A DNA stretch of 64,000 bases from Anaeropeptidivorans aminofermentans. Lineage in GTDB: Bacteria > Bacillota > Clostridia > Lachnospirales > UBA5962. The stretch's first letter is position 1. Each line of letters starts with the position of its first letter. The translations under genes were made by a program, and so were the position numbers. Where the stretch lies: assembly GCF_940670685.1 (NCBI RefSeq), contig NZ_OW711693.1:2666001-2730000 (forward strand), given 5' to 3'. This document shows positions 2,449 through 35,670 of the stretch, in pieces. The notes under the pieces are model-generated. The model was not told the origin of the DNA. It saw only the letters and a list, made by a program, of their open reading frames with translations, and searched no databases.

Positions 2449-2988
2449 TTATAATATCCCCTTAAAGACGGATTTCAAATCCTCTATAATATTCTTAACT
2501 GAATATCCGTCATTATAAAACAACCACCTTATTGTAGTCAATATCACTGAAGCATATAAGCTGCTATGATAATCTGCAATAATCTCTTCAGTTTTATGCT
2601 CTTTAAGTAAATATTCCTTGCAGCTTTCTTTAAGAAGCAATTCAAAGTCCCTGTATACATTGATTGTATCCGTCTCTATTTTCCATAAGGATAATATATA
2701 GAATTTCTGCTGAATTAAATAAGCATATATTTTTTAAACTACATAAACCAAATCCTGGTCTTCCATTTCTTTAAAGCGGTCTTTCAAATAGGATTTAGCC
2801 TGCTGAATATATTCATCAGAAAGCTGCTCCGCAAGGTCGTATTTATCCTTATAGTATTTATAAAATGTTGGACGTTTAATTAAGGCTGTATCTATAATGT
2901 TTTGGACAGTTATGTCTTTAAAGCTCTTGTTTTCAAGTAAATATACAAAGCTTTCCTTTACATTTTTCTTGGTTTTTATCACTCTCAA
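2449..2988 (-). pseudogene. TetR/AcrR family regulator interrupted by one in-frame TAA
   Basis: One continuous frame of 178 sense codons runs from ATG 2988 to the stop at 2449, broken once by TAA at 2734-2736 after residue 84. Residues 1-55 are a TetR DNA-binding domain (VKESFVYLLENKSFKDITVQ, then RPTFYKYYKDKYDL). Everything behind the stop reads on in the same frame and looks like a TetR ligand-binding domain (AYLIQQKFYIL, then LLLKESCKEYLLKE and SVILTTIRWLFYNDGYSV). The length without the stop is normal for TetR. No frameshift is needed. It may be a true nonsense mutation or an assembly error. The second half has an ATG at 2640 but no convincing ribosome binding site. Confidence 0.85.
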
Positions 2989-3257
2989 ATCTGTTTTTTA
3001 TCCATAACCGGCACCTTCATGCAATCATAATGATAGGGTTTATATGTTTGCAATATAATAAATCTGCCTGTATTTCCAATGATAAACCACAGATGCTTCT
3101 ATTCTGTTGCTTATCATATCATATACAGATATTTAATGGTTGCAGTAGTTTTTTAAATACATAATACTGTAAATAATAAAGGGCTGTCATTTAATTCACA
3201 GAATATATTTTTGTTCTTTTGGCGGTCAATAAATTATATTAATTCAGAGAGGCATCT

Positions 3258-3605
3258 ATGGTTAAAAAACTCGTATTTTTAGAGCATCTCATACTATTTT
3301 TATATCTTTTATATACATATTTTTCTTCGGGATTTAGTATTCTGCTTTTTATCGTTCTTTTCTTTCTTCCAGACGCTGCAATTATATTTTATAAGATAAA
3401 TGATAAAATAGGAAGCTTTGCTTATAATTTAATCCATACCCATTCCATACCGTTAGCGCTGCTTATTATAAATTATATATTTTTAAACACTCTATTATTG
3501 CACTCTGTTTGTATTATTTGGTTATCTCATATTGCAATGGATAGATTTTTAGGCTTTGTTTTAAAATACAAGGATTTTAAGGATATTCACATGCAAAGGA
3601 TATAA
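3258..3605 (+). CDS. DUF4260 family small membrane protein
   Basis: A 115-residue very hydrophobic protein with about four membrane-spanning stretches (roughly 5-20, 25-42, 62-78 and 80-92). Family blocks seen: LEHLILFLYLLYTYF at the N-terminus, FFLPDAA, YNLIHTHSIPLALL, and IIWLSHIAMDRFLGFVLKY near the end. The conserved PD, H-T-H and H-x-x-x-DR residues are typical of DUF4260. Function is unknown. AGAGAGG stands ahead of the ATG. It is flanked by unrelated genes and looks monocistronic. Confidence 0.8.
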   Translation: MVKKLVFLEHLILFLYLLYTYFSSGFSILLFIVLFFLPDAAIIFYKINDKIGSFAYNLIHTHSIPLALLIINYIFLNTLLLHSVCIIWLSHIAMDRFLGFVLKYKDFKDIHMQRI

Positions 3606-3759
3606 TTGCTTACATGCAGCCTTCGTTGAAGCTTCTGAATTTATTAAAAATAACAGTATTTCCATAACTTTCATTAAAGTTAAAAATTAAAACTACACAT
3701 ATATCTGTATCCTCTCATAGAATAGGTAAGAATATAAAAATTTTAAGGAGGATAAATAT

Positions 3760-4758
3760 ATGTCCACGCACTTTGAGTCTCTGGAAACAACTGTCCCTGA
3801 AAATCTTCACCGATTACCGACGGAGGTGGACACAGATTTCCAGCGTCTTATAGAATTTATAAAAGATAAGGACGTAGATGAAATTAAAAAAGCTATTATC
3901 CGTAATCTGAACCATTTTAATAAAACGAATCCCCAACTTTACAGAAATTCAATAAATTATTATAACGATTATAATAATCTTTGGGGAAAATACTATCCGG
4001 AAGAAGGTAATTATGAGCTTGTAGACAACAGAGCCGACGCACTGGTGAATCATCTTGAAGATTTCAAGTGGCTTTATCCTTTGCTTAAAGACTACCGCTC
4101 AAAAAAAATATTAGTGAACATACTCTATTATTGGCTTATGTCTGACCCTAAAAGAATAGAAGGCATATACGACAGAACTTATAGGCAGTATTTTGACCTT
4201 GACATTGTGAAATGCGATGAAAATGAAGTGTTTGTCGACATAGGCGGATATATCGGAGATAGTATTGTCGATTACACAAGGGCCTTTGGAAAGGATTGTT
4301 ATAAGAGAATTTACTCTTATGAAATCGTATCTAAAAATATTGAATATATAGAAAAAAACGTAAAGATATTTGAGCTTGATAATATTATTATCAATAAAAA
4401 AGGCGCCGGCAGCAAAAACGGAACCATGTATATTTCTTCCGATGACATATCCTCCATCAACCAGCTTGCAGAAAGCGGAAAATATGCCATTCCTGTAGTT
4501 AAAATTGACGACGATATAGAAGAAGATGTGACTTTTATAAAAATGGATATCGAAGGCGGCGAAGAAGAAGCTCTTTTAGGCTGTATCCAAAAAATAAAGG
4601 ATAACCACCCGAAGCTCGCCTTAAGCATATATCATAATCACAAGGATATGTGGAAGCTCCCAAGAATAATTTACGATGCCGACCCCACATATAATTTCTA
4701 TATCCGGTATTATGGCTCCTCTATTCTGCCGACAGAATATGTTATTTATGCCATTTAA
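3760..4758 (+). CDS. FkbM family SAM-dependent methyltransferase
   Basis: 332 residues. The C-terminal half is an FkbM methyltransferase domain: the SAM-binding glycine motif VDIGGYIGDS (159-168), the acidic end of the next strand (YSYE), and IKMDIEGGEEEALLG (260-274), which is the family signature. FkbM proteins methylate hydroxyl groups of sugars or secondary metabolites. The first 150 residues are helical, unlike the short N-terminus of simple FkbM enzymes, and may bind the acceptor. No glycosyltransferase or polyketide genes lie next to it, so the substrate is open. AAGGAGG precedes the ATG with good spacing. Confidence 0.85.
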   Translation: MSTHFESLETTVPENLHRLPTEVDTDFQRLIEFIKDKDVDEIKKAIIRNLNHFNKTNPQLYRNSINYYNDYNNLWGKYYPEEGNYELVDNRADALVNHLEDFKWLYPLLKDYRSKKILVNILYYWLMSDPKRIEGIYDRTYRQYFDLDIVKCDENEVFVDIGGYIGDSIVDYTRAFGKDCYKRIYSYEIVSKNIEYIEKNVKIFELDNIIINKKGAGSKNGTMYISSDDISSINQLAESGKYAIPVVKIDDDIEEDVTFIKMDIEGGEEEALLGCIQKIKDNHPKLALSIYHNHKDMWKLPRIIYDADPTYNFYIRYYGSSILPTEYVIYAI

Positions 4759-13443: not shown

Positions 13444-14349
13444 ATGGAAGTCACAGAAAAAATTAAAAAGCTGCAAAAAGAGCGTAATGCATTGATTTTA
13501 GCGCATTTTTATCAGCCGGGGGAAGTTCAGGATATTGCTGATGTTGTGGGGGACTCTTTGGAGCTTGCAAAGGCTGCGAGAGATGCAGAAAATGACGTTA
13601 TTGTCTTTTGCGGCGTGCGCTTTATGGCAGAGACTGCAAAGATACTCAACCCTGATAAAACTGTTCTTCTTCCTGCCATTGACGCAGGCTGCCCTATGGC
13701 AGATATGATTACTGCCGAGGAAGTGATGCGCCTGAAAGAAGAAAACCCCAATGCTGCAGTTCTATGCTATGTAAATTCAGATATTGAAGTAAAGGCTGTA
13801 AGCGATATTTGCGCTACATCGTCAAACGCCGTTAAAATAGCGCAGTCTCTTAAGGAAGAAGAAATCATTTTCGTTCCTGATCAATGCCTTGGTAGCTATG
13901 TTGCCCAGTTTCTTCCTGAAAAGAAATTTATACTTCCCAAGGGCTTCTGCCCTACCCATATGAAAATTACCTCAGCCGATATAAAGGCTGCGAGAGCCGC
14001 AAAGCCCAACGCAAGGCTTCTTGTTCACCCGGAATGCGCTCCTGAGGTTGTAAAGCTTGCGGATTTTGCAGGAAGCACGGCTCAAATAATAAAGGAAGCT
14101 GTAAATTCCTCTCATAAAGAGTTTTTAATAGGAACAGAAGAAGGCATACTGCACCGTCTTGTTAAGCTATGCCCCGATAAAAAGTTTTATAATATCGGCC
14201 GCAGCCAAACATGCCCTAACATGAAAAAAACAAATATAGATTTAGTTTTAAACGCTTTAGAAAAAATGGAACACGAAATAAAAGTTAAAGAAGACCTTGC
14301 AAAAAAGGCCGTTAAAAGCCTGGAAAGAATGTTTTCGGTTCCTTTATAA
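13444..14349 (+). CDS. nadA: Quinolinate synthase A
   Basis: 301 residues. NadA condenses iminoaspartate with dihydroxyacetone phosphate to quinolinate using a [4Fe-4S] cluster. The three expected ligands are visible at Cys83 (DAGCPMA), Cys169 (GFCPTHM) and Cys257 (SQTCPNM). Other blocks: AHFYQPGEVQDIADVVGDS near the start, CYVNSD, ATSSNAV, FVPDQCLGSYVA and VHPECAP. The length is that of the short, oxygen-sensitive bacterial type. AGAAGGG precedes the ATG. It lies between niaR and nadB in the NAD operon. Confidence 0.97.
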   Translation: MEVTEKIKKLQKERNALILAHFYQPGEVQDIADVVGDSLELAKAARDAENDVIVFCGVRFMAETAKILNPDKTVLLPAIDAGCPMADMITAEEVMRLKEENPNAAVLCYVNSDIEVKAVSDICATSSNAVKIAQSLKEEEIIFVPDQCLGSYVAQFLPEKKFILPKGFCPTHMKITSADIKAARAAKPNARLLVHPECAPEVVKLADFAGSTAQIIKEAVNSSHKEFLIGTEEGILHRLVKLCPDKKFYNIGRSQTCPNMKKTNIDLVLNALEKMEHEIKVKEDLAKKAVKSLERMFSVPL

Positions 14350-14451
14350 ATTTATAAAGAGAAATTTATTATACAAAAGAAGCTCATACCTGTTTCCTAT
14401 ACATACCCAAAAGCAGCAGGAGAACTTTAAAAGCTTTTAAAATTCTTGCTA

Positions 14452-14545
14452 TCTAGCTGTAAATTTGATTTTCAGCGGTATAAAATAGGAAAAAGACAAA
14501 TTAACAATGCTCCTATTTCATATGAATTCAAGTATCAGAAATCAT
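14452..14545. repeat. Family C intergenic repeat between nadA and nadB
   Basis: Reads GTAAATTTGATTTTCAGCGG, TATAAAATAGGAAAAAG, ACAAATTAACAATGCTCC and TATTTCATATGAATTCAAGT in order, closely matching the copies at 13.3 kb and 35.9 kb. A frame open through it extends nadB upstream by 44 codons, but the nadB ribosome binding site lies behind it. Confidence 0.8.
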
Positions 14546-14577
14546 TATTCATTTTAATGATTCACCGAAGGGACAAT

Positions 14578-16119
14578 ATGAATAAGTTTATTTTAAATAC
14601 AGAAAACGCAGTATCTATAGAAACGGATATTATGATTGCAGGCTCCGGAGCCGCAGGGCTTTACGCCGCTTTAAGCCTGCCTCCTGAAATAAAATGCATA
14701 ATCCTTAATAAAGACGGAAAAGAAGTGAGCAATTCCATATTTGCCCAAGGGGGAATTTCAGCGGTTACCCAACAGGATGAATTCCTTAGAAAAGGCCATA
14801 TTGAAGACACGCTTTTAGCCGGCGCAGGGCTCTGCAATGAAGAAGCCGTCCGCATTTTAGTCAGTGAAGCCGCTGAAAACATAGAAAAACTAATAGAATT
14901 CGGCGTGCCCTTCGACAGAAAAAACGGGGAGCTTTTAAAAACCCGCGAAGGCGGTCACAGAGAAAGGCGGATACTCCACTGCGGCGGCGATGCCACAGGC
15001 CTCCATATTACAAAAACCCTTTTAGAAAAAGCAATGAAAAGGGACAATATAAAGTTTATAAATTATGCTCTGATTACGGATATCTTATCCGATGATAGGG
15101 GCGTTACCGGTGCCCTTGTTCTTAAAGAAAATAAAGAAGTTCTTTTAATCAATACCCGAAGAATCATACTTGCATCGGGAGGTATCGGGCGTATCTATTC
15201 CGGCAGCACCAATGCCCTTTCTGCCACAGGGGACGGCATGGCTCTGGCATTAAGGGCGGGGGCAGCACTTAAGGACATGGAATTTATACAATTCCACCCT
15301 ACGGTCCTTTGCGGTTCCGATTCCTCCGGCCGTTCTTTTCTTGTTTCTGAAGCCTTAAGAGGCGAAGGCGCAAGGCTTATGAACAGCAAAGGGGTCTATT
15401 TTATGGAGGGGGCCCACCCTATGGCAGACCTTGCCCCAAGAGATATTGTGGCAAGAGCCATATTCTCTGAGCTTGAAAAAAGCGGCGACAATTGCGTTTA
15501 TCTTGATATTACTCACAGAGACCGGGATTTTCTTAAAGAGCGTTTTCCTACTATATTCACTGAGTGTATGGAAAGAGGCATAGATATCTCCGAAAAACCC
15601 ATACCCGTCCACCCTCTTCAGCATTATATCATGGGAGGCATTAAAACTGGGCTCTACGGTGAAACCGCTCTCAAAGGCCTTTATGCCTGCGGAGAAACCG
15701 CCTGTACAGGCATTCACGGCGCAAACCGCCTTGCAAGCAATTCTCTTCTTGAATGCCTCGTTTTTGGAAGGAGGGCCGCACTCCACGCCTCAGCGCTTTC
15801 CCCTTCTGAAGGAAAGAAACATCATATTTCAAATTGCTCTATGGGAAGAGAAAAAGCAGATTGGAAAGAAATTTCCGAAAAGATTCAATTTATCATGACG
15901 AACTGCTGCGGCATTATCAGAGACGGTAAAGGTCTTTTAAAAGCCATAAATGAATTAAAAGCAATTTCAAATACTCTTGAAAATTCACTGTTAAATACGA
16001 AAGACGCCATCGAAACCTTTCATATGTCTTTAGTGGCCCTTGCCGTTGCGGAAGGGGCAATGAAAAGGGAAAAGAGCATAGGCGCCCATTACAGAAAAGA
16101 TAGCAAGGAGGATAAATAA
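14578..16119 (+). CDS. nadB: L-aspartate oxidase
   Basis: 513 residues from ATG 14578, with GAAGGGAC ahead; the longer frame starting at 14446 crosses a repeat. NadB oxidises L-aspartate to iminoaspartate, the NadA substrate. The FAD-binding Rossmann motif IAGSGAAGLYAA lies near residues 21-32. SIFAQGGISAV, REGGHRERRILHCGG, EFIQFHPTVL, HYIMGGIKTG and GANRLASNSLLECLVFGRRAA are the flavin and substrate motifs of the succinate dehydrogenase/aspartate oxidase family. The C-terminal helical region is shorter than in E. coli. The stop codon shares one base with nadC. Confidence 0.96.
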   Translation: MNKFILNTENAVSIETDIMIAGSGAAGLYAALSLPPEIKCIILNKDGKEVSNSIFAQGGISAVTQQDEFLRKGHIEDTLLAGAGLCNEEAVRILVSEAAENIEKLIEFGVPFDRKNGELLKTREGGHRERRILHCGGDATGLHITKTLLEKAMKRDNIKFINYALITDILSDDRGVTGALVLKENKEVLLINTRRIILASGGIGRIYSGSTNALSATGDGMALALRAGAALKDMEFIQFHPTVLCGSDSSGRSFLVSEALRGEGARLMNSKGVYFMEGAHPMADLAPRDIVARAIFSELEKSGDNCVYLDITHRDRDFLKERFPTIFTECMERGIDISEKPIPVHPLQHYIMGGIKTGLYGETALKGLYACGETACTGIHGANRLASNSLLECLVFGRRAALHASALSPSEGKKHHISNCSMGREKADWKEISEKIQFIMTNCCGIIRDGKGLLKAINELKAISNTLENSLLNTKDAIETFHMSLVALAVAEGAMKREKSIGAHYRKDSKEDK

Positions 16120-22386: not shown

Positions 22387-24528
22387 TTACTTGCCTATTC
22401 CGTAAAGAACGGGAAGCTTCACATGAGAAGGATATGCCTTTCCGTGATAAATTCTGTTTTGGGCTACAATCGGCTTCGGGTCCTCATAGGGGTCTATACC
22501 CGTATTTGTGTTGGGGAAAAATTCATAATAATTGCTGGAGGTAATATCAACACGTATTTTATGGCCCTTTTTAAATACATAGCCGTTAAAATACATTTCC
22601 ATCTCATATTTTTCAATGGCGCCCGGCGTAAGAAGCTCGGGCTTCTCCCAGCCCTTTCTAAATTCTGCTCTGATGACATTATCAGATATTTTTCTCGCAA
22701 TGCCCTTTTCGTCCACGTCTGAAAGCCTCACGATAAAATCCGTATCTTTGGCGCTTGAAGAAGCGTAAAATTCGGCATATACATTTCCGGCCATGGCTAC
22801 GTTATTTTCTAAAGCAGGGGTATCGTACACAAGGCAGTCGTTTCGAAGCTGTATCTCATTGCAGATATAAGGCTCTACATGGCCGTCGTTACCGATAGGC
22901 TGTTCCGGGTCATAGGTATATTCGTCAAAGGCTTCGTTTTCCTCCGGTTCGAAAACAATACGGCCGTTTCCGAACATGGAATTCGCCTGCCCTTTGCTCG
23001 TAAGATAAAGATTTATAAATTTGCTTTCTTCCGGGGTCCAGTCGGCAGATTCCCGCCACTTGTTTTCCCCTACTACATAATAAATTGCCCTTGGTTTTTT
23101 ATTCTCTCCGTTTTCTATGCCTTTCAGGTAATGGTCGAACCATCTGATGATTCTTGTGTCAAAGTCGTAATCAACGGCATTGTCACCGAATTCAAGGTCC
23201 CTGCAATCTCGAAAGGCGTTTAAACCGTGAGGCCAGGGCCCAAGGACAATCCGCCTGCCGGGAGTATCGTTTTCAGTTAAGAATTTCCAGGTCTCCTGAA
23301 CTCCTAAAGCGTCTCCGTCGTACCAGCCGGATAGGATAAGCATGGGGATTTTTATGTTTTTACTGTGAACAGTGTTATCGCTGTGCCGCCAGAAATCGTC
23401 GTAATGGTAATGCTTTGCCCATAAATCCCACGGGCCGGAAGCCTTTCCGATGATTTTTTGGGGAATATCCTTAATAGGCCTGTAGGTAATGGCTTCTTTA
23501 ATATTGATAGATTCCCCTGAGAAAACCCTATGGTCTATTCTGTTGCTTACAGATTGACCCAAAGTCCAGCATAAAAGAGGCCAGGAGCATATGGTTCCGC
23601 CCCTTCTTGCGGTGTCGTAAAAAGGAGAGCCTACGTTTACTTCGCTTATGGCGGTTTTTAAATGAGGATTTCCTGAAGTGGCAGCCGATGTGGTGGTATA
23701 GCCTAAATAGCTTGCTCCCCACATGCCGATACTGCCGTTACTCCAATCCTGAGCGGCTATCCAGTCAAATAGGTCGCTTGCGTCTTCCCTTTCATTTTGG
23801 AAGGGCTCCAAGATGCCGTCGGAATCGGAACGGCCCCTTACGTCCTGAACGACATAGGCGTATCCTCTGGCCACCCAATGCCAGCAGCGGTTAATGTCTC
23901 TCGCCTTGCCGTAGCATGTTCTTACCACAATAGCCGGAACCTTTTCGCCTGCCTTAAGGCCTTCCGGAAGAAAAACCTCCGTTGCAAGATTGGTACCGTC
24001 CTTTGTGGGAACCATAATATTGCCCAAATGGTTTACGCCGTATTCCGCCTTTGATAAAAGGGGGTCGTCGTATTTCGCAAGGGGGGTAAGGCTTTCATAT
24101 CCCGGAATAACGGCAATTTCTGAATGAACCCTTCCCGGGTTATAAAAAGCGATGATTTCATTGTCAACGGTTATAATATCCGTAACCCCGTGGGATTTTC
24201 GCTGAGCCCAGATTTGGGCCGTTTTATTTTTTCCGTCAATTTCTTTTTCTATGGTACTGTATTTATGATATTGACTGCCGTTTGAAAGCACTATAACGTC
24301 TTCTTCCCATTTGCAGCCGGTATAGATTTCTATGTCTTTATAAATATGATGATAGTCTATAAGGCTCGCCTTCTTATCTTTTGTAAATGGCTTTCTTTTA
24401 AGCTGAACCTGAGTTTTTCTGTCTACATTGCAAAGCTCAAGCTCCTTTTCGCTAAAAAGCACCTGACCGTCGTAAACCCCTGATATGTAAATATTAAAGG
24501 CTTTGTTCATCAAATAATTTTCCTTCAT
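22387..24528 (-). CDS. CocE/NonD family hydrolase (peptidase S15-like) with N-terminal extension
   Basis: 713 residues. From about 160 on it is an S15/CocE alpha/beta hydrolase: Ser273 in GMWGASYLGY, Asp404 in LSGWYDGDALG and His434 in GPWPHGLN form the triad; the C-terminal jelly-roll domain (VYAEFYASSSAKDTDFIVRL, GHKIRVDITSSNY) is present. Family members cleave X-Pro peptides, cocaine-type esters or acylated amino acids. The first 155 residues do not belong to the usual fold (FNIYISGVYDGQVLF, CKWEEDVIVLSN). No signal peptide. AAGGAGG sets the start, 11 bases behind oppF, so it is the last gene of the peptide operon and probably acts on the imported compound. Confidence 0.88.
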   Translation of the reverse strand: MKENYLMNKAFNIYISGVYDGQVLFSEKELELCNVDRKTQVQLKRKPFTKDKKASLIDYHHIYKDIEIYTGCKWEEDVIVLSNGSQYHKYSTIEKEIDGKNKTAQIWAQRKSHGVTDIITVDNEIIAFYNPGRVHSEIAVIPGYESLTPLAKYDDPLLSKAEYGVNHLGNIMVPTKDGTNLATEVFLPEGLKAGEKVPAIVVRTCYGKARDINRCWHWVARGYAYVVQDVRGRSDSDGILEPFQNEREDASDLFDWIAAQDWSNGSIGMWGASYLGYTTTSAATSGNPHLKTAISEVNVGSPFYDTARRGGTICSWPLLCWTLGQSVSNRIDHRVFSGESINIKEAITYRPIKDIPQKIIGKASGPWDLWAKHYHYDDFWRHSDNTVHSKNIKIPMLILSGWYDGDALGVQETWKFLTENDTPGRRIVLGPWPHGLNAFRDCRDLEFGDNAVDYDFDTRIIRWFDHYLKGIENGENKKPRAIYYVVGENKWRESADWTPEESKFINLYLTSKGQANSMFGNGRIVFEPEENEAFDEYTYDPEQPIGNDGHVEPYICNEIQLRNDCLVYDTPALENNVAMAGNVYAEFYASSSAKDTDFIVRLSDVDEKGIARKISDNVIRAEFRKGWEKPELLTPGAIEKYEMEMYFNGYVFKKGHKIRVDITSSNYYEFFPNTNTGIDPYEDPKPIVAQNRIYHGKAYPSHVKLPVLYGIGK

Positions 24529-24539: not shown

Positions 24540-25496
24540 TTAAATTTCATTGCATCTGATACAGCGGATAAAATGGTCCTCCCCTAAATCCGTTACAGGC
24601 GGTACTGCCTTTCTGCAGGCCTCTGCTGCATATTCGCACCTCGGGGCAAAACGGCATTCATTTTTAGGGTTAATAGGAGAGGTAATCTCCCCTTTCAGAA
24701 TGATTCTATCCTTCTTTTCTTTCAGGTTCGGAACAGGAATCGCTGAAAGCAAGGCTTTTGTATAAGGGTGCTTTGGATTTTTAAAAAGCTCTTTCGTCGG
24801 GGCCATTTCAACCATTTGCCCCAGATACATGACAATAATATTATTGGAAACATGCTTTACGACACTTAAATCATGGGTTATGAACATATAGGTATAGCCG
24901 AACTGCATTTGGAGCCTTTTTAAAAGATTGAGTATCTGGGCCTGTATGCTTACGTCAAGGGCGGATACCGGCTCATCGCATACAATGAATTCAGGATTCA
25001 GGGCCAGGGCTCTTGCAATGCCGATTCTCTGGCGTCTGCCCCCGTCCATTTCATGGGGATAGGCATTTATAAATCTTTCGGAAAGGCCCACAAGCTCCAT
25101 AAGCTCAAAAACTCTTTTTTCTCTTTCTTTTCTGGAAGGGTACATTCTATGGATATCAAAGGCTTCCGCAATGGCACCATACACTGTTTTTCTGGGGTTT
25201 AAGGAAGAAAAGGGGTCCTGAAATATCATCTGTATCTTTTTTCTGTATTCTTTTGTCTTACTGCGATTAATCTTGGTCAAATCCTGCCCTTCAAATAAGA
25301 TTTCTCCTCCTGTAGGCTCTAAAAGCATGGAAAGAAGCCTGCCTGTGGTGGATTTTCCACAGCCCGACTCTCCTACCACGCCGATGGTCTTTCCTTTTTC
25401 CACAGAAAAGTCAAGGCCGTCCACAGCATGGAGATTTCCTCCGGGGGTAGGAAAATATTTTTTAAGGCCCTTTACTTCAATATAAGGATTACTCAT
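24540..25496 (-). CDS. oppF: Oligopeptide/dipeptide ABC transporter ATP-binding protein OppF-like
   Basis: 318 residues. Walker A GESGCGKST (about 39-47), Q-loop MIFQDPFSSLNPRKTV, signature in MDGGRRQRIGIARAL (an unusual DGG in place of SGG), Walker B FIVCDEPVSALD. The C-terminal oligopeptide-specific domain with Cys residues (NECRFAPRCEYAAEACRKAVP) marks OppD/DppF-type proteins and may hold an iron-sulfur cluster. It pairs with the OppD-like ATPase, whose gene overlaps this one by eight bases. Confidence 0.93.
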   Translation of the reverse strand: MSNPYIEVKGLKKYFPTPGGNLHAVDGLDFSVEKGKTIGVVGESGCGKSTTGRLLSMLLEPTGGEILFEGQDLTKINRSKTKEYRKKIQMIFQDPFSSLNPRKTVYGAIAEAFDIHRMYPSRKEREKRVFELMELVGLSERFINAYPHEMDGGRRQRIGIARALALNPEFIVCDEPVSALDVSIQAQILNLLKRLQMQFGYTYMFITHDLSVVKHVSNNIIVMYLGQMVEMAPTKELFKNPKHPYTKALLSAIPVPNLKEKKDRIILKGEITSPINPKNECRFAPRCEYAAEACRKAVPPVTDLGEDHFIRCIRCNEI

Positions 25497-26487
25497 ATTT
25501 TATGACCTCCTTTACAGGAAGCTTATTTTCATATATAAAGCATCTGGTTTTATGCCCCGGTTCCCACTCTGTATCGTCTGGGGATTCCCTAGCGCAAAGC
25601 CCAGAAGCGTATTTGCATCTTGGGTGGAATTTACAGCCGGAAGGAAGGTCATGAGGGTCAGGCATAAGGCCCTCAATGGGGGAAAGAAATTCCGTCTCTT
25701 TATAAATATCCGGGATGCTTCCGAAAAGCCCGTTAGTATAGGGGTGGAGCGGATTTTCAAAAATATCTTTGATGGAGCCGGATTCCACAATCTCTCCTGC
25801 ATACATAATGGCAACCCTGTCGCAGATTTCAGACACTACCCCTAAATCATGGGTAATCAAAATCATTGAAGTTCTAAGCTTCTCCTTAAGCCCCTTCATA
25901 AGCTCAAGGACCTGGGCCTGAATGGTCACGTCAAGAGCCGTTGTAGGCTCGTCCGCTATGAGAAGCTTGGGGTTACAGGCAAGGGCCATGGCGATAACAA
26001 CTCTTTGCTTCATTCCCCCCGAAAACTGATGAGGGTATTCATAAGCCCTTTCGGCAGGGATTCTTACCAGTTCAAGCATTTCTATGGCCTTTTTTTCAGA
26101 CTCTGATTTACTTAAATTTTGATGATTTTCTATAACTTCCGCTATTTGGCTTACCACAGGAAAAACAGGATTTAAGGCGGTCATAGGGTCTTGAAATATC
26201 ATGGAGATTTCCTTTCCCCTGATTTTTCTGTAAGCCTCTTCTTTAAGGCTGAGGAGGTTCTTTTCGTTAAATAAAATTTTTCCCTTTTCTATTTTCCCCG
26301 GCGGGCAGTCAATAAGGCCCATGATGCCAAGGGCGGTAGTGGTTTTTCCTGCGCCTGTCTCTCCTACAAGGCCTAAGGTCTCTCCTTCGTTTATACTAAG
26401 GTTAACGCCGTTCACGGCATCAACCGTTCCGTCGTCAGTATGAAATTTAATGAAGAGATTTTCTATATCCAGTATTTTTTTATCCAT
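25489..26487 (-). CDS. oppD: Oligopeptide/dipeptide ABC transporter ATP-binding protein OppD-like
   Basis: 332 residues. Walker A GETGAGKTT, Q-loop MIFQDPMTALNPVFPV, signature FSGGMKQRVVIAMAL, Walker B LLIADEPTTALDVT, H-loop LITHDLG. The C-terminal oligopeptide domain (PSGCKFHPRCKYASGLC) is present. It supplies one of the two nucleotide-binding sites of the importer. Gap of 11 bases to oppC upstream. Confidence 0.95.
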   Translation of the reverse strand: MDKKILDIENLFIKFHTDDGTVDAVNGVNLSINEGETLGLVGETGAGKTTTALGIMGLIDCPPGKIEKGKILFNEKNLLSLKEEAYRKIRGKEISMIFQDPMTALNPVFPVVSQIAEVIENHQNLSKSESEKKAIEMLELVRIPAERAYEYPHQFSGGMKQRVVIAMALACNPKLLIADEPTTALDVTIQAQVLELMKGLKEKLRTSMILITHDLGVVSEICDRVAIMYAGEIVESGSIKDIFENPLHPYTNGLFGSIPDIYKETEFLSPIEGLMPDPHDLPSGCKFHPRCKYASGLCARESPDDTEWEPGHKTRCFIYENKLPVKEVIKYE

Positions 26488-26498
26488 TCCAAGGCCTC

Positions 26499-27389
26499 CT
26501 ATCGCTTCATTCTGGGGTCAAGAGCGTCCCTGAGGCCGTCCCCCATAAGGGTCAAGGCAATAATCGTAATAACGATTGCAATGCCTGGGAATGCCGTAAC
26601 ATGCCATGAATCCCTTATGACGTTTCGCCCGCTGGCAAGCATTGCACCCCATTCGGGATTTGGCGCCTGAACCCCAAGGCCGATAAAGCTTAATCCGCTT
26701 ATCTGCATAATGCCCCCTGCAACATTCATCACAAACTGGGAGATTAAGGGGCTTATGGCGTTTGGCAAAATGTGGCCTGCAATAATTCTAAAATCACTTG
26801 CCCCCTGCCCTTTTATGGCCTCAATAAACTCCTGGCCTGCAATTTGAAGAACTTGGGCCCTGATTAACCTTGCCGATGAAGGCACACTGCTGATAGCCAT
26901 AGCCATAATAAGGTTAAAAAGGGTGGGCTTCATAATGCTTACTAAAGTTATCATTAAAAGGGTGGTGGGTATGGCCATAAATACATCAAGAAAACGCATG
27001 ATTAAACTGTCGGAATACCCTCCGTAATAGCCTGCAAGAGAGCCTAAAACAGCCCCTATAATAAAGCTTATCATCATCGACGCAAAACCAATCCCTATGG
27101 AAATACGGCCGCCCCAGATGATTCTTGCGAAAATATCACGGCCGATTTCGTCGGTTCCCAGAAGCTTTCCTTCTGCCGGAAACTGAAGGGCCTGGGTAAG
27201 GTCCGGCTTTATCACCTGCTCTTCATAATTTATGTATAAAGGAGAGAGATAAACCCCAAGTAAAATAACAGCAAGCATTATCATGCCCACAACGGCGGAT
27301 TTATTTCTTTTAAGCCTCAGCCAAACATCTACCCAAAGGCTTCTTCTTTCCCCGGGCCGGCGTACTTTTATATTGTTATGCATTTGCAA
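26499..27389 (-). CDS. oppC: Oligopeptide/dipeptide ABC transporter permease OppC-like
   Basis: 296 residues with an N-terminal OppC_N segment (DVWLRLKRNKSAVVGMIMLA) and a binding-protein-dependent permease domain of five membrane helices. LLGTDEIGRDIFARIIWGGRISI and the coupling EAA-type loop (EFIEAIKGQGASDFRIIAGHILPNAI) are diagnostic. The start overlaps the oppB stop by 14 bases. Together with OppB it forms the channel. Confidence 0.95.
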   Translation of the reverse strand: MQMHNNIKVRRPGERRSLWVDVWLRLKRNKSAVVGMIMLAVILLGVYLSPLYINYEEQVIKPDLTQALQFPAEGKLLGTDEIGRDIFARIIWGGRISIGIGFASMMISFIIGAVLGSLAGYYGGYSDSLIMRFLDVFMAIPTTLLMITLVSIMKPTLFNLIMAMAISSVPSSARLIRAQVLQIAGQEFIEAIKGQGASDFRIIAGHILPNAISPLISQFVMNVAGGIMQISGLSFIGLGVQAPNPEWGAMLASGRNVIRDSWHVTAFPGIAIVITIIALTLMGDGLRDALDPRMKR

Positions 27390-28344
27390 CCGCCTCCTCC
27401 TGTGGTCTTTGGCGTCTCTTTATATAACGCGATTTGATTCTCGGGTCAACGAAAGCATAGGCAAGGTCCGTAAGAAGGTTTGCAAGAGCTATTACGATTG
27501 CCGTTATGATGACCCCCGAGAGGACTGTTGGTATATCCTTTTGCCTTAAGGCGTCAACCATCATTTTTCCCATACCATTGATGCCGAATAATGTTTCAAT
27601 AATAACGGAGCCGCCCATACAGTTTCCGATGGACATTCCGATGGCGGTTATGGTGGGCAGAAGAGCGTTTTTAAGGGCATGCCGCCTGATGACGATGCTT
27701 GGCTTAAGGCCCTTCGCCCTTGCGGTTCTGATATAATCCTGTCTTATGACATCAAGCATAGAAGCTCTTGTAAGCCTTGAATTTACCGCCCAGCCGGAAA
27801 CGGAAAGGCAAAGTACCGGCATCACAATAGCCGCCGGCGAATCAAATCCGCTTGAAGGCAGTATTCTGAGCTTTACAGAAAAAAGTATTATCAGCAAAAG
27901 ACCCAGCCAAAAGCCAGGCATTGCCGCCATGATAAGGCTCGCTATTCGCATAATATTGTCAAAAAGAGAGTTCTGCTTTACGGCAAGGGCAATACCCAAA
28001 GGTATGGATATGGCAAAAATAGCAATAAGAGAACCAAAGGATAAAACAAGAGTTGCCGGAAGCCTTGTTTTTATCATATCCGATACCTTCTGCTTCGTCG
28101 TATAAGATGTGCCCAAATCTCCTGTTACCGCTTTCTTTGCGTAATTAAAATACTGGGTAGGAAGGGGATCATTAAGCCCCAGCTCCTCCCGCATTTGATG
28201 AACCTCTGCTTCTTTGGCGTTTATGCCTAAAATCATTTTTGCCGGATCTCCGGGGCTTAATGAAAGCATAAGAAATACAATGATTGAGACCCCCAAAACA
28301 ACCGGTATCATCTGTATAAGCCTTTTGATTACGTATCTTATCAT
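27376..28344 (-). CDS. oppB: Oligopeptide/dipeptide ABC transporter permease OppB-like
   Basis: 322 residues. N-terminus MIRYVIKRLIQMIPVVLGVS, the FLMLSLSPGDPAKMILG block, PTQYFNYAKKAVTGDLGTSY and the coupling loop DYIRTARAKGLKPSIVIRRHALKNALLP are as in DppB/OppB; six membrane helices. AAAGGGGG stands ahead of the ATG. A gap of 424 bases rich in repeats separates it from the binding-protein gene upstream, unusual for such an operon. Confidence 0.95.
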   Translation of the reverse strand: MIRYVIKRLIQMIPVVLGVSIIVFLMLSLSPGDPAKMILGINAKEAEVHQMREELGLNDPLPTQYFNYAKKAVTGDLGTSYTTKQKVSDMIKTRLPATLVLSFGSLIAIFAISIPLGIALAVKQNSLFDNIMRIASLIMAAMPGFWLGLLLIILFSVKLRILPSSGFDSPAAIVMPVLCLSVSGWAVNSRLTRASMLDVIRQDYIRTARAKGLKPSIVIRRHALKNALLPTITAIGMSIGNCMGGSVIIETLFGINGMGKMMVDALRQKDIPTVLSGVIITAIVIALANLLTDLAYAFVDPRIKSRYIKRRQRPQEEAVANA

Positions 28345-28436
28345 GGTCTGTCCCCCTTTAGCTTAAGGAATCTGTAATCCCCATACCCTTACAAATATAG
28401 AAAAGGCGGATAAAATGTTTATACTGCAGTAAATTT

Positions 28437-28561
28437 CTTATAAAGAAGGAACAAATACCTATTTACAATAACCTCAAGAACACGGATTTCCTTCGGAAGC
28501 AGTATATTTTGAGGCAATGTAAACATACGGTTTTGTTCCTTCTTTTATTTTAAATTTACTA
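28437..28561. repeat. Family A palindromic repeat, copy 3, inside the opp operon
   Basis: A near-complete copy: AGTAAATTTCTTATAAAGAA at the left and TTTTAAATTTACTATAA at the right, outer stem GAAGGAACAAA/TTTTGTTCCTTC, inner stem CCTCAA/TTGAGG and a core with ACGGATTTCCTTCGGAAGC, whose UUCG-type loop would be very stable in RNA. It lies between the binding-protein gene and the permease genes. Confidence 0.85.
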
Positions 28562-28665
28562 TAATTTAAAATCAGTATAAAAGCAGAACAAAATAATGCT
28601 CCTTCTTATTTTACTGATTTATCCGCCTTGACTATGCTGCTATTTCGCATGAATTTAAGTGTGGA
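28562..28665. repeat. Family C repeat next to family A copy 3
   Basis: AATCAGTATAAAAGCAG, AATAATGCTCCTTC and TTGACTATGCTGCTATTTCG, ATGAATTTAAGTGTGG follow the family C order, with a partial duplication of the AATGCTCC part. Confidence 0.65.
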
Positions 28666-28699
28666 AGAAATTCTCTGTTTTATAAACGAAGTCTTTAAT

Positions 28700-28766
28700 T
28701 ATAGTAAAATAGCCTTAAGAGCAGCAAAAACCTATTTTCCATAAAGGGTTTTTGTTACCTTAATTA
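28700..28766 (+). repeat. Family B end fragment inside the opp operon
   Basis: ATAGTAAAATAGCCTTAAG, AAAAACCTATTTTCCATAAA and GGGTTTTTGTTACCTTAAT form a short hairpin-like copy of the B end block, just behind the binding-protein stop. Confidence 0.7.
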
Positions 28767-28768
28767 AA

Positions 28769-30289
28769 CTATTCTGCCGTAATCGAAGCATTGCGGAAGG
28801 AAATAAGCCCACTGGTTAATATTTCTACGTCCTTAAGCTCTTTTACATGAGCAAAATAGGATAAACGTGAGATGCTGGGAACAATTGGCACCTCCTGAGC
28901 CGCTATATCCTGAACTTCCTTGGCAGCTGCTATCATCTCCTCTTCGGAAGTAGTCGCCTTGGCTATATTATAAAGTTCATCTGTTCTTTCATTGCTGTAA
29001 AAGCCGATATTATTCATTCCGAAGCTTCCGGTATAATAACATTCAAAGGCTGAAAGGGGATTTCCCGTAGTGTTTCCCCAGCCGCCTGATAAAAGCTGAT
29101 AGTCTGCCCCTGCCATTTTTTCAAGGAATACGCCGAATTCAAGGTTCGTTATGGTCATTTCAACATTGATAGACCTTAATTGAGCCTGAAAGGCTTCCAT
29201 AGCAGGGTCAGAACCGGAATAGATAACGGCTTCAAATTTCAAAGGATTGGAAGCGTTATATCCTTCCGCCTCAAGAAGTGCTTTTGCCTTATCCAGATTA
29301 TATTCCAAAGTATGAGGAGAAGAATAGTATGTACTTAAGGTCTCGGGAAACATACTGTCTATGGCCTTTCTTCCGGGAGATAATGCGGCGATGCCTTCTT
29401 TATCATAAGCATGGGCAATGGCTCTTCTTACGTTTACATTGTCAAAAGGCTCTTTCGTCGTATTCATTGCAATAAAACCTGTGTAAGCCGTGGCCTTTTC
29501 CTCAAGGGTAAGCTTGCTGTTTTCTGTAGCTCTGTCTTTATCCTTTGCATCTATCAGCGCAAACTGAGCGTCTCCCGACTCAACGGCGATATATTTTGCA
29601 GCCGCTTCTGAAATGCCTTTAAAGGTAATGGTGCTTAACTGGGCTTTTTCAAAAGGATATTCAGTCCATGCTTCTAAAATGAGCTTATCCCCAGGCACAA
29701 ATTCCTTCACTTTATAAGGGCCTGTTCCGATTGGGGCATTGGCGTAGGCATCGCCTGCTTCTTCGCAGTATTTTTTATTTACGATAATAACTTCTGCAAA
29801 GTCTCTCAATATGCCGCTGTTAGGCTCTGTAAGCTTTACGATGAGCTTATTGCCCTCCGATGCAACTCCTTCTATCCCCGCCATAAAGGAAGCCTTTTTT
29901 GCTATATTTCTAAGCCTTTCAATAGAGTAAACAACATCATCCATGGTCATATCTTCGCCGTTATGGAATTTATAGCCTGTATTTATTGTAAACTCTATTG
30001 TCATATTATCCGGCTGTCTCCACTCGGAAGCCACATCAGGAATAATGTTAAAATTGTCGTCGGCTTTTATAATTCTGTCGTAAACGTGATACATCATAGA
30101 AGATGTGTCGGTATAATTTGCTTCGATAGGGTCCATATTATTGCCTATGGAGCTTACAATTACCGTAATATCTTTATTTGCCGGGCTCTCTTTTGGGTTT
30201 CCTCCGTCTGTACTTCCGCCGCCTCCGCAGGACGTAACAATCATAGACGATAATACAAGGAATAAAATCAGTGCTGATAATTTTTTCAT
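28769..30289 (-). CDS. oppA: Extracellular solute-binding lipoprotein, family 5 (OppA/DppA-like)
   Basis: 506 residues. The signal peptide ends in lipobox VTSC with Cys21, followed by a Gly-rich linker (CGGGGSTDGG), so it is anchored outside the membrane. The family 5 fold is clear: DPIEANYTDTSSMMYHVYDR, FTINTGYKFHNGEDMTMDDVVYSIER, PIGTGPYKVKEF, NVRRAIAHAYDKEGIA and YNLDKAKALLEAEGY. It captures the peptide or related solute for OppBCDF. GGAGG precedes the ATG. Distance to the permease genes suggests separate control of its level. Confidence 0.94.
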   Translation of the reverse strand: MKKLSALILFLVLSSMIVTSCGGGGSTDGGNPKESPANKDITVIVSSIGNNMDPIEANYTDTSSMMYHVYDRIIKADDNFNIIPDVASEWRQPDNMTIEFTINTGYKFHNGEDMTMDDVVYSIERLRNIAKKASFMAGIEGVASEGNKLIVKLTEPNSGILRDFAEVIIVNKKYCEEAGDAYANAPIGTGPYKVKEFVPGDKLILEAWTEYPFEKAQLSTITFKGISEAAAKYIAVESGDAQFALIDAKDKDRATENSKLTLEEKATAYTGFIAMNTTKEPFDNVNVRRAIAHAYDKEGIAALSPGRKAIDSMFPETLSTYYSSPHTLEYNLDKAKALLEAEGYNASNPLKFEAVIYSGSDPAMEAFQAQLRSINVEMTITNLEFGVFLEKMAGADYQLLSGGWGNTTGNPLSAFECYYTGSFGMNNIGFYSNERTDELYNIAKATTSEEEMIAAAKEVQDIAAQEVPIVPSISRLSYFAHVKELKDVEILTSGLISFRNASITAE

Positions 30290-30433: not shown

Positions 30434-31594
30434 TTATTTCCATACTGCCTTAAAAACTCTTAAAAAGTTTCCGCCGAGTATGTTTTTTATATCGCTGTCA
30501 CTATAACCTCTTGAAACCAATCCTCTTGTGATATTAATTATGGATCTATAATCCTTCATACCCTTTACATATTCTATGGAAGGGCCGTCTCCCGGCTTAA
30601 AGCCCATGCCTGGGGCCACAAGCTCTTTAAACTTCAATGCCATCCACTTTGTCTGGGGCATGGGCCAGTCAGTACCTATGCCTACATGAGAAGGGCCTGT
30701 AAGCTTTGCAATATAGTCTATATGGTCCAGAAGATGCTCTATGGTGGTATTTTCAGGCTCTTCTGCGATGAACCATGGCATACAGAATACCCCTATTACG
30801 CCGCCGGTTTCTGCGATTGCTTTAATTTCTTCATCGGATTTTGCCCTGTTATGGAAATAAACCTTTTCCGCCGCCGAATGAGAAGCAATCACAGGCTTTT
30901 TAGAATATTTACAGGCATCTAAAGTAGTCTGCTTTCCACAGTGGCCCGTGTCTACCACAATACCAAGCTCATTCATCTTTTCTACGAACTTAATGCCGAA
31001 ATTTGAAAGGCCGGCATTATTTTGTTCCATACAGCCTGCGCCTAAATAATTATGATTATTGTAAGTAAGCTGTATTACTCTAAGACCGAAGCGGAAGAAT
31101 TTTTCAAGAAGGACTAAATCTTTTTCAAAGCCTAAAGTTTCCTGGCAGGTTACGATACCCGCTTTTAGATTATTTGCCTTGGCATATTCAATGTCTTCTG
31201 CTTTAAAAGCCTTAATGAGCCATGGTTTTTTATCAAATTCTTCCTGAATGGAAAGGGCCGATGCGTATAATTCTTCTTTGCTTGAAACCCCAAGCTGCCT
31301 ATTTCCTGCTGTAAGGCCGCTTTCATAGAAGCAGTCCTTATATAAGTCTGAAAGCTTACCGTCTGTAAACAAATCATGGATATATTCTTCAGTAAAATTA
31401 AGCTGTGCAATAACATTTCCCGGATATTTTTCCTGGGCAAGGTTCAGGGTTTCTTCCTCAAAGCCTTCTTCAAAAGAATATGTTCCTATGGGGCCTTGAA
31501 AAAGCATGTCTATAATAATACTTTCGTCATGCAGTTGTCTTGCTCTTTTTTCCTGTTCGTCTGTCAGCTGAAACGGATAAAGCTCCTCTAACAT
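30434..31594 (-). CDS. Membrane dipeptidase-like protein, peptidase family M19
   Basis: 386 residues of the renal-dipeptidase amidohydrolase fold. Later metal and substrate sites are present: DTGHCGKQT, VIASHSAAEKVYFHNR, GVIGVFCMPWF and HVGIGTDWPMP. The N-terminal His-x-Asp metal pair expected after the first strand is not seen; the position reads IIIDMLFQGPIG, so the metal site differs from classical M19 enzymes. Family members cut dipeptides, some with D-residues at the C-terminus. No signal peptide. The ATG follows directly on the stop of the upstream gene, with no spacer. Confidence 0.87.
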   Translation of the reverse strand: MLEELYPFQLTDEQEKRARQLHDESIIIDMLFQGPIGTYSFEEGFEEETLNLAQEKYPGNVIAQLNFTEEYIHDLFTDGKLSDLYKDCFYESGLTAGNRQLGVSSKEELYASALSIQEEFDKKPWLIKAFKAEDIEYAKANNLKAGIVTCQETLGFEKDLVLLEKFFRFGLRVIQLTYNNHNYLGAGCMEQNNAGLSNFGIKFVEKMNELGIVVDTGHCGKQTTLDACKYSKKPVIASHSAAEKVYFHNRAKSDEEIKAIAETGGVIGVFCMPWFIAEEPENTTIEHLLDHIDYIAKLTGPSHVGIGTDWPMPQTKWMALKFKELVAPGMGFKPGDGPSIEYVKGMKDYRSIINITRGLVSRGYSDSDIKNILGGNFLRVFKAVWK

Positions 31595-32557
31595 CTACTC
31601 ACCCCTTATATTTTTTTCTATAATGCCTGCGATATAGTCGGCGGAAGCCAAATCCTCTACGGCAAGCCCCAGCGCCTCAAATATGGTTGTATCCTCGTCA
31701 TTTTTCCGGCCTTCTAAATTTCCTAATATAACGTCTCCCAGTTCCCCTAAAAGATGTTCTTTCGTAATTGCGCCTTCTGAAAGCGGAATAAGAAAATCCC
31801 CTGATTCAGCAAGAGTTGACTCAATTCTGTCTCCAAATACCCGAGATTTTTTAACAATCTCCGTATCAAGCTCCCGGCAATCTGGGGTACAGGCTCCTAC
31901 GGCATTAATATGGGCGCCTTTTTTTACGTCTTTACCGAACAATATGGGATTTTTGGCAGAAGTAACGGTGCAAATAATATCTGCGTTTTCTACTGCCTTG
32001 GAGACCTCTGTACAGATATGAATAGGGATAGGAAATTTAGCACTCATTTCCTCTTTAAATTTTTTAAGGGAATCTTTGTTTATATCCCAAACGTATACTG
32101 CTTTTATATCCCGTACATAGCTTATGGCTTCAAGATGTTTCCTCGCTTGAAGACCCGAGCCTAAAATACATAATACCTCTGCGTTCTTTCTTGCAAGATA
32201 ATCTGTTGCAAGGGCGCTTACGGCTGCAGTTCTTACCCCTGTTATGGCTTCTGCCTCAACGACGGCTTTAAGAGCGCCTGTATCGGCATCAAATAAAGTT
32301 ATTAGCCCCTGGTGGGAAGGCATTCCCCTTTTAAAATTATCAGGAAAAACCGTTATAATCTTTGCCCCTGCTATTGTTCTTCCAGGAATAGACGCGGGCA
32401 TAAGGCCCAATATCTTTCTTTCCTCTATTTCCATAGCCACCCTTAGCACCTGGGACGCTTCCCCTTTTGATAAAGCACATAGGGTATCTTTCATAAGCCC
32501 TATACAGCTTTTCAGATCAAAAAGTTCTGCAACCTGCTGTTCTGAAATAAAAAGCAT
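31595..32557 (-). CDS. Ornithine cyclodeaminase / mu-crystallin family protein
   Basis: 320 residues. NAD(P)-binding domain with LCILGSGLQARKHLEAI (about 129-145), preceded by EAEAITGVRTAAVSALAT and followed by ICTVTSAKNPI and INAVGACTPDCRELD. GLMPASIPG and AGAKIITVFPDN belong to the dimer and substrate domain. Family reactions include ornithine to proline, alanine dehydrogenase and ketimine reductase, so the exact substrate is open. It is the first gene of the operon leading to the dipeptidase and the Opp transporter. GGAG lies 12 bases ahead of the ATG, slightly far. Confidence 0.88.
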   Translation of the reverse strand: MLFISEQQVAELFDLKSCIGLMKDTLCALSKGEASQVLRVAMEIEERKILGLMPASIPGRTIAGAKIITVFPDNFKRGMPSHQGLITLFDADTGALKAVVEAEAITGVRTAAVSALATDYLARKNAEVLCILGSGLQARKHLEAISYVRDIKAVYVWDINKDSLKKFKEEMSAKFPIPIHICTEVSKAVENADIICTVTSAKNPILFGKDVKKGAHINAVGACTPDCRELDTEIVKKSRVFGDRIESTLAESGDFLIPLSEGAITKEHLLGELGDVILGNLEGRKNDEDTTIFEALGLAVEDLASADYIAGIIEKNIRGE

Positions 32558-32622: not shown

Positions 32623-32688
32623 GATTTTCTGCGAAGCTTCACAACATGATATAATATGAACAAAATCAAACTTTGGTTGATTTTGTTC
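32623..32688. promoter_or_regulatory. Inverted repeats upstream of the peptide operon
   Basis: GAACAAAATCAA (32658-32669) pairs perfectly with TTGATTTTGTTC (32677-32688) across seven bases, and AAAATCAAACTTT in it also pairs with AAAGTTTGATTTT at 32616-32628. Located 100-130 bases ahead of the first operon gene. It could be an operator for the divergent regulator; no consensus promoter was recognised for the operon. Confidence 0.55.
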
Positions 32689-32844
32689 ACGAATACATTT
32701 TGCGAAGACAACTGTATGAGCAAAATTATACTTATGATATAATGATTTAATAAAAAAGATAAGCTTTTAAAAAGTGACAATATGGTGCAAACGCTTAAGA
32801 TAGATATAAACTTAACAACCTTTATCAAACTAATTATATCTTAC

Positions 32845-32890: not shown

Positions 32891-32929
32891 TATATTAAAG
32901 ACCGCTTAATATTAAACGGGAGGTTTTAT

Positions 32930-34255
32930 ATGCTTTTTAAGCTGGCTGTTGTTGGACATAAGGAGTCTCTAAAAGAAATACAGAATATCATTTATTCAAA
33001 ATTCAATAATGTAGAACCTGTAGTTGTGGAATTTAACGACGATGACGAATCTGAGTCTGCCTATAATAATCTTGTGAAAATCATGCCCCTTTGCGATGCT
33101 ATTTTATATACCCGCTTTGAGCCTTATAAAATTATGGCAAGCATGCTTGAGCACACTGTTCCCGTAAGATAAGTTGACGTAGATTCTTCAAACCTTATTC
33201 ACTGCCTTTTAAAAGCCGCTTATCACTATAAAGCTGATATCAGAAACATAAGTATAGACACTCTCGACAGAGAAGCCGTTATGTCTGCCTTTACCTCCAT
33301 AGGCATAGATGAAAGTGAGGTTAAAGCTCATATCATCAATATAGATTCAGGAGATAAGCACTTTGTCCATAAAATAGATACAGAGCATAGATATAATTAC
33401 AATAAAAATTTATGCGATTTTTGTATCACAAATATCCGAAGCATTTATGTAAAAATGATTCAGGAAAATATTAAATGCGTTTTGCTTGCCCCCAGCAAAG
33501 AAACTTATATTTACGAAATAAGGCGGCTTATGATCAGCCACGGCTTAAACAAATTAAATGATAACCACAATGTAATCATAAAACTTAAGCTTTATCCGAA
33601 AAGCGATTTTTATATCTATAATAAAACCCTTTTACAAGAGGTAATGGATTTAAATAAAGCAAGGGAATATGCCGCCATTTTTTCCGAAAATGTAAGAGGG
33701 GTAATAATTTCTGCAAGCGAAATGGAATTTTATATCCTATGCAAAAGCGCCCTTTTGGAAAGCGAAACGGAAAACTTTACAAAGCTTGATTTGCTTCAAA
33801 GCATAGCCGCTCATACGGCGCTGACGGTGAATATAGCCATAGGCTATGGAAATAATTTAAAGAAAGCAAAGGCCAATGCCGAAACAGGCCTGAAACATTC
33901 AAACCCAAATTCCAATCAAGCTTATGTCGTTTATGACGCAGAAAATATTGTAGGGCCTATAGAACCAAATGAAATCATAAGCATATATGAAGAGCTTATA
34001 GACGAAAGGCTTATACAAATAAGCGAATTATCGGGCCTTAGTATTAATACCATATATAAAATAGATACTTATGTGAAGCAGAAAAGAAACAGCCCCGTTA
34101 CCTCAAAAGAGCTTTCCATACATCTTGGCATAAGCACGAGAACTGCCGACAGAATCGTATCAAGACTTGAAAAATGCGGGCTTATTATAGAAGCAGGCCG
34201 TCAGGTAATAAAGGAAAGAGGAAGGCCTACAAGAATACTTAAAATTATGTTTTGA
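32930..34255 (+). pseudogene. Winged-helix regulator with nucleotidyl-cyclase-like domain, interrupted by one in-frame TAA
   Basis: A continuous frame of 440 sense codons from ATG 32930 (GGGAGG ahead) to the TGA ending at 34255, broken only by TAA at 33170-33172 after residue 80. Codons on both sides make one protein: EHTVPVR, stop, VDVDSSNLIHCLLKAAYHY, DIRNISIDTLDREAV. Later parts hold a cyclase/GGDEF-like block (NIAIGYGNNLKKAKANAETGL) and a C-terminal winged helix (VTSKELSIHLGISTRTADRI, SRLEKCGLIIEAGRQV). It diverges from the peptide operon and is its likely regulator. The second part could restart at the ATG at 33281 but lacks a ribosome binding site. An assembly error is possible. Confidence 0.85.
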
Positions 34256-34278: not shown

Positions 34279-35670
34279 ATGGAAAAAGTTAATCAGGAAA
34301 TAGTACAGGATTTTCTTAAAGACAATAAAAGATTCTTCGAAAAAGGAATAACAAAGAATATCAGCTTTCGTCTAAAGCAGCTTAAAAAGCTGGAATCAGT
34401 CTTCCGAAGCTATGAAACGAAGTTTATGCACGCCCTTTATCAAGATTTAGGAAAAGGTAAATTTGAAGCCTATACAACAGAAATCGGATTTATTTACAAA
34501 AGCATAAGGCATATGATTAAAAACCTTCAACAGTGGTCAAAGCCTGAAAAAGTAAAAACGCCTGTTTATCTCATGCCCTCAAAAAGCTATATTATTAAAG
34601 AACCCTATGGAACGGTTCTCATTATAGGCCCCTTTAATTATCCTCTGCAGCTTATAATGGAGCCGCTTATTGGAGCCATTGCCGCAGGAAACTGCGCCGT
34701 AATCAAACCTTCGGAAAATACTCCTGCTGTTTCCTCGGTATTTGCTGAAATGATAGAAAAAACCTTTGACAAAAAATATATAAGTGTGCTCCAAGGAGGT
34801 ATGGAAACCACTTCTGCCCTTATCAACTCCCCTTTTGATTATATCTTTTTTACAGGAAGCCCTAAGGTAGGTAAAATGGTTATGGCGGCGGCAGCTAAAA
34901 ACCTGATTCCCGTAACATTAGAGCTTGGCGGAAAAAGCCCTGTAATCGTAGAAAAAACAGCCAATATCTCTCTTGCCGCAAAACGCATCGTGTGGGGCAA
35001 ATTCATAAATACTGGGCAAACATGCGTAGCACCGGATTACATCCTTGCAGATTCCCGAATAAAGAATATTTTAATAAAAGAAATGAAAAATACCATAGTT
35101 CATTTCTTCGGTACCGATTCTCTTGATAATCCCGATTATGGAAGAATAATAAACGAAAGAGCCTTTCTAAGACTTGCATCAATTATAGATATGGAAAAAG
35201 AGCATATACTTTACGGCGGAAAATATGTAAAAGCAAATCTTCATATAGAGCCGACTTTGATAGAAGTAAATTCTCTGGAAGCTCCTGTTATGGCAGATGA
35301 AATTTTTGGCCCCTTGCTTCCTATAATGGAATATAAACATTTAGACGAGGCGATTTCCATAATAAACAGCCAGCCCAAGCCCCTGGCGGCATATTTGTTC
35401 ACAGAAAACAAGGTTGCCGAGAAGCATGTTTTAAGGCATCTTTCCTTCGGAGGAGGTTGTATAAATGATACTATCACTCATATCGCAAATCCCAATCTTC
35501 CTTTCGGAGGCATTGGAAATTCAGGTATGGGCTTTTATCACGGAAAATACAGCTTTGAACTCTTCTCCCATAAAAAGTCTATACTGAAAAAAAGCACATT
35601 CATAGAAATGGGAATGACCTTCCCTCCCTATGGGAATAAAATCAATTTGATGCGTCAGATACTAAAATAA
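34279..35670 (+). CDS. NAD(P)-dependent aldehyde dehydrogenase, class 3 type
   Basis: 463 residues from ATG 34279, with GGAGGG ahead. Short class 3 ALDH without N-terminal extension. NAD-binding GPFNYPLQL and KPSENTPA, FTGSPKVGK, catalytic Glu in LELGGKSP and Cys in NTGQTCVAPDY are intact, as are EIFGPLLPI and LPFGGIGNSGMG. The C-terminal hydrophobic tail of ALDH3 membrane forms is absent. Substrates are often medium- to long-chain aliphatic aldehydes. It starts 23 bases behind the broken regulator and may share its transcript; a link to the peptide operon is possible but unproven. Confidence 0.92.
   Translation: MEKVNQEIVQDFLKDNKRFFEKGITKNISFRLKQLKKLESVFRSYETKFMHALYQDLGKGKFEAYTTEIGFIYKSIRHMIKNLQQWSKPEKVKTPVYLMPSKSYIIKEPYGTVLIIGPFNYPLQLIMEPLIGAIAAGNCAVIKPSENTPAVSSVFAEMIEKTFDKKYISVLQGGMETTSALINSPFDYIFFTGSPKVGKMVMAAAAKNLIPVTLELGGKSPVIVEKTANISLAAKRIVWGKFINTGQTCVAPDYILADSRIKNILIKEMKNTIVHFFGTDSLDNPDYGRIINERAFLRLASIIDMEKEHILYGGKYVKANLHIEPTLIEVNSLEAPVMADEIFGPLLPIMEYKHLDEAISIINSQPKPLAAYLFTENKVAEKHVLRHLSFGGGCINDTITHIANPNLPFGGIGNSGMGFYHGKYSFELFSHKKSILKKSTFIEMGMTFPPYGNKINLMRQILK

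Follow-up and report, generated by a model that had tools for sequence, protein, structure and literature searches.

An in-frame TAA codon interrupts a putative regulator gene divergent from an Opp/dipeptidase operon in Anaeropeptidivorans aminofermentans

Domain architecture of the interrupted gene product

The closest described counterparts of the regulator studied here are proteins with a PrpR_N sensor domain (PF06506; structures 2pju and 2q5c). PrpR itself belongs to the sigma-54 activators and carries an AAA+ domain. For the middle part of the protein, the nearest described folds are those of GTP cyclohydrolase III (2qv6) and of the GGDEF_GdpP family (PF24898). With regard to its lesion, the gene is best compared to the single-lesion nonsense pseudogenes of bacteria, with which it shares a lone in-frame stop codon, coding signal as well as homology before and after that stop, and intact relatives.

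The window, i.e., the whole stretch of 64,000 bp that was analyzed, contains the interrupted gene as a single frame of 442 codons (32930-34255, plus strand). A preliminary description had stated that this frame is open except for one TAA and that the residues on both sides belong to one protein. Translation confirmed a sole internal stop codon, at codon 81 of 441. The gene and its predicted domains are arranged as follows:

32918-32923, plus strand: ribosome-binding site GGGAGG, from the sequence (duplex energy -11.5 kcal/mol, within the range of real genes)
32930-33169, plus strand: N-terminal piece of 80 codons, encoding the beginning of the PrpR_N-like sensor
33170-33172, plus strand: in-frame TAA, codon 81 (aromatic at this position in 17 of the 20 relatives)
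33173-34252, plus strand: rest of the frame, 360 codons, with the remaining sensor, the GGDEF/GdpP-like domain and the winged helix-turn-helix
34253-34255, plus strand: terminal stop codon TGA
32930-33553, plus strand: PrpR_N-like sensor domain, residues 1-208, two-lobed, with the stop inside (structure match to 2pju and 2q5c)
33560-33973, plus strand: degenerate GGDEF/GdpP-like domain, residues 211-348 (structure match; GGDEF_GdpP in 6 of 21 family members)
34004-34252, plus strand: C-terminal winged helix-turn-helix, residues 359-441 (PF08279, E 2.2e-6; model)

The start codon ATG at 32930 is served by a strong ribosome-binding site, the energies of 18 neighboring genes ranging from -8.4 to -14.2. 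Codon-usage scores per codon were 0.227 upstream and 0.243 downstream of the TAA, both indicative of coding sequence, and the homology match within the organism's own genome spans the whole read-through query with one TAA inside. As judged from the sequence, this continuity of homology and coding signal across the TAA far exceeds chance, in line with the preliminary view of one protein.

A model of the read-through protein was computed with AlphaFold2 using 21 sequences (mean pLDDT 86) and subjected to structure comparison. Residues 1-208 resembled the PrpR_N structures over the whole domain, with Z scores of about 13 and an rmsd of 2.6-3.3 at only 12% identity. The match to 2pju (Z 13.1) covered 184 residues at an rmsd of 2.6 and a TM score of about 0.75 by target length, and that to 2q5c had a Z score of 13.2. 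The stop codon is located in strand 79-81 of this domain. PF06506 did not match the window protein and matched one of the 21 members at an E value of 0.0025. In contrast to PrpR, the protein lacks the AAA+ domain; in the family, no Pfam match to an AAA+ sigma-54 interaction domain or a Fis-type helix-turn-helix was obtained, and a winged helix-turn-helix is present instead. Residues 211-348 share the fold of 2qv6 (Z 11.5) and of GGDEF_GdpP. However, the catalytic GG(D/E)EF motif is missing, being SEMEF in the window protein and GRSEF or similar in the relatives, and the domain is therefore probably not a cyclase. A literature search on the combination of a PrpR_N-like domain, a degenerate GGDEF domain and a winged helix-turn-helix returned nothing on point.

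Relatives and gene neighborhood

Searches with the read-through protein identified homologues in 10 of the 392 genomes of the order, the own genome included, and a profile search yielded about a dozen full-length homologues among 391 genomes of the class. The closest relative, from a Clostridiales MAG (L007/L041), shares 50% identity, and none above this value was found in the genome and viral contig collections searched. It reads continuously, its N-terminus being lost at a contig end, and has a tyrosine at the interrupted codon. The next-closest relatives, Clostridioides difficile among them, share about 30%, 28% or less. The relatives are unbroken at codon 81 and mostly aromatic there: the position is open in all 20 aligned relatives, with 13 tyrosines, 4 phenylalanines and one each of arginine, aspartate and proline. 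One further relative in another genome (L011, G302:C3), itself broken in several frames, was left out of this count. The alignment revealed one protein in the relatives, not two, and since all 20 are open at this codon, the ancestral gene encoded a single protein. The same genome also contains an intact paralogue of about 20% identity (L111, 7715-9049, minus strand; G000:C1, about 742700-744050), located within a few kb of an OppA-like and a PucR-like gene.

The surroundings of the interrupted gene comprise the following features:

31595-32557, minus strand: ornithine cyclodeaminase-like gene, first of the divergent operon (PF02423, E 2.7e-84)
30434-31594, minus strand: M19 membrane dipeptidase (PF01244)
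24540-30289, minus strand: OppA, OppB, OppC, OppD and OppF (OppA and OppD by Pfam; OppB, OppC and OppF by sequence and order)
22387-24528, minus strand: S15 X-Pro dipeptidyl-peptidase/CocE-type hydrolase (PF02129, PF08530)
34279-35670, plus strand: aldehyde dehydrogenase, 23 bp downstream of the interrupted gene, with its own ribosome-binding site (PF00171, E 4e-89)
32657-32725, plus strand: palindrome between the divergent genes, one of the dispersed copies of a repeat of 86-88 bp

Gene order and Pfam matches established the proposed divergence from the ornithine cyclodeaminase, M19, Opp and X-Pro peptidase genes, all of which are intact. The aldehyde dehydrogenase gene is possibly co-transcribed with the interrupted gene. 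The relatives lie next to beta-eliminating lyases of the tyrosine phenol-lyase type at three loci, and elsewhere next to D-aminoacylases with two-part transporters or M20 peptidases with AbgT-like transporters, where the names AbgT-like and tyrosine phenol-lyase type were assigned by reading the sequences without a subfamily test. One relative (L107) is flanked by M20 genes on one side and by OppABCDF on the other. The match to HTH_11 identifies the protein as a DNA-binding regulator, and its family is located beside peptide and amino-acid degradation genes, in line with the earlier assignment as a regulator. Because the relatives adjoin catabolic enzyme and Opp genes, a role of the intact gene product in regulating peptide or amino-acid catabolism appears reasonable. 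Its position would also suggest control of this particular divergent operon.

The intergenic palindrome was considered as a private operator and rejected, as it occurs at 36 genomic sites with at most 3 mismatches, with none in the control. As it belongs to a repeat that is dispersed over the genome, it yielded no evidence for an operator. In intergenic regions, the repeat forms hairpins and is arranged in tandem with a unit length of 86-88 bp (L117 has 9.8 copies); it occurs at G000:C1:1094481-1094894, 2585434-2586298, 549558-549844 and 2902144-2902348, and has no Rfam match.

Origin of the internal stop codon

We consider it probable that the regulator gene was broken recently by a real single nonsense substitution at codon 81. 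As in a nonsense pseudogene, the intact homologues carry a sense codon at the site of the stop (20 of 20), and a conserved protein is shortened well before its end while homology continues beyond. The segments downstream of the stop are about as similar to the 19 other members as those of the intact closest relative are; this holds for every segment, including the helix-turn-helix (30.1% compared to 28.1% identity). As decay is absent downstream of the stop, the lesion is either recent or an artefact. It is this lack of further decay, pointing to a recent event, that sets the gene apart from other single-lesion nonsense pseudogenes.

The artefact, a sequencing or assembly error in a gene that is intact in the organism, is a doubtful but still serious possibility. 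A single isolated substitution in an undecayed, strongly coding frame is what such an error would leave, and on the sequence alone a base error explains a lone lesion without decay equally well. In addition, the reading frame of another interrupted gene of the window, a TetR-like one, is broken at an A-run, as is often the case with uncorrected errors. On the other hand, the genome is a single contig of 3.76 Mb with only a handful of in-frame breaks in the about 1.3 Mb sampled, and in polished assemblies indels are a more common error than substitutions.

Screening about 1.3 Mb of the genome by codon usage, a coarse method whose count is a rough lower bound, revealed at least 4 other broken genes. 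The TetR-like gene (window 2449-3000, minus strand) has an in-frame TAA at 2734-2736 and the frame break near its start; its TetR_N match (E 1.2e-4) is just under the cut-off. A xylose-isomerase-like gene (L091, about 14730-15440) and a CAT-like gene (L076, about 13950-14580) each contain one in-frame TAA, and a further gene (L089, about 2600-4100, minus strand) has multiple lesions. The regulator is one of several interrupted genes and is therefore in keeping with the ordinary loss of genes, or with assembly errors that remained, rather than with a special device.

Partial function by internal initiation would require one of two start codons downstream of the TAA:

33281-33283, plus strand: ATG, the nearest canonical start downstream of the TAA (duplex energy -2.9, background level)
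33530-33532, plus strand: ATG at residue 201, which would yield a sensor-less fragment (moderate pairing, -6.7)

A constitutive, sensor-less regulator consisting of the GGDEF-like and helix-turn-helix domains might be produced from either ATG, better from the second, which leaves both domains whole, and the absence of decay downstream would be in accordance with such a product. However, 55% of internal ATGs pair as well as the one at 33281 or better, and the value at 33530 is not unusual, as 19% of internal ATGs reach -5. Moreover, none of the relatives encodes the short form separately. We regard this reading as improbable, and slightly more so its extension, in which the truncation is tolerated by internal initiation and the stop represents an adaptive loss-of-sensing allele by which a regulator responding to peptides became constitutive.

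Recoding or readthrough of the stop, by a suppressor tRNA or as programmed readthrough serving as a switch, is very improbable. The frame is open on either side of the TAA, and within the first 494 kb sampled TAA was the codon in each of the four clearest cases of an isolated in-frame interruption, for which chance would account with a probability of about 0.03-0.05. This apparent excess was dropped after a further 800 kb yielded just one doubtful TAA case. Among 56 Rfam tRNA hits, the loci of which were viewed with ARAGORN, no UUA anticodon was present, and TAA is the normal terminator of most long open reading frames (118 of 172). The 151 nt flanking the stop folded worse than shuffled sequences (z +1.66), and sense codons occupy the position in the relatives. 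Thus, of the preliminary interpretation, the interrupted regulator and the divergent operon were upheld, whereas the stop as a switch was not, as neither a suppressor tRNA, nor a recoding structure, nor a ribosome-binding site for a restart was detected.

The genome also has in-frame TGA codons in glycine/betaine-reductase-type genes as well as a tRNA-SeC gene (L077, 12494 and 14604; L091, 838; L132, 8418; L154, 8811). In the glycine-reductase-type genes TGA appears to be read as selenocysteine, which is irrelevant to TAA. Based on these several selenoproteins, the organism is probably a Stickland-type fermenter.

We give almost no credence to two separate genes for proteins of 80 and 324 aa: both open reading frames are mechanically present, but as an ancestral arrangement this was refuted by the one continuous protein at the codon in 20 of 20 aligned relatives, the second frame lacks a ribosome-binding site, and in the model the stop sits within one folded domain.

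Implications of the interrupted regulator

The intact gene product would be a cytoplasmic transcription factor in which a PrpR_N-like ligand sensor and a degenerate GGDEF-like domain are followed by a C-terminal winged helix-turn-helix, and, as its relatives suggest, it would control peptide or amino-acid catabolism. If the nonsense substitution is real, translation from ATG 32930 would stop within the sensor, leaving an 80-residue stub devoid of the DNA-binding domain, and the Opp/dipeptidase operon on the opposite strand would be deprived of this regulator. Each of these steps, from the reality of the base through the loss of function to the consequences for the operon, is our inference. With a real stop, the Opp/dipeptidase genes of this strain should be expressed independently of the regulator.

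As a broken gene, the interrupted regulator is an ordinary case. The family to which it belongs, combining a PrpR_N-like sensor, a degenerate GGDEF domain and a winged helix-turn-helix, occurs in Clostridia including Clostridioides difficile and is apparently uncharacterized; its intact members would be the ones to study for the control of amino-acid fermentation.
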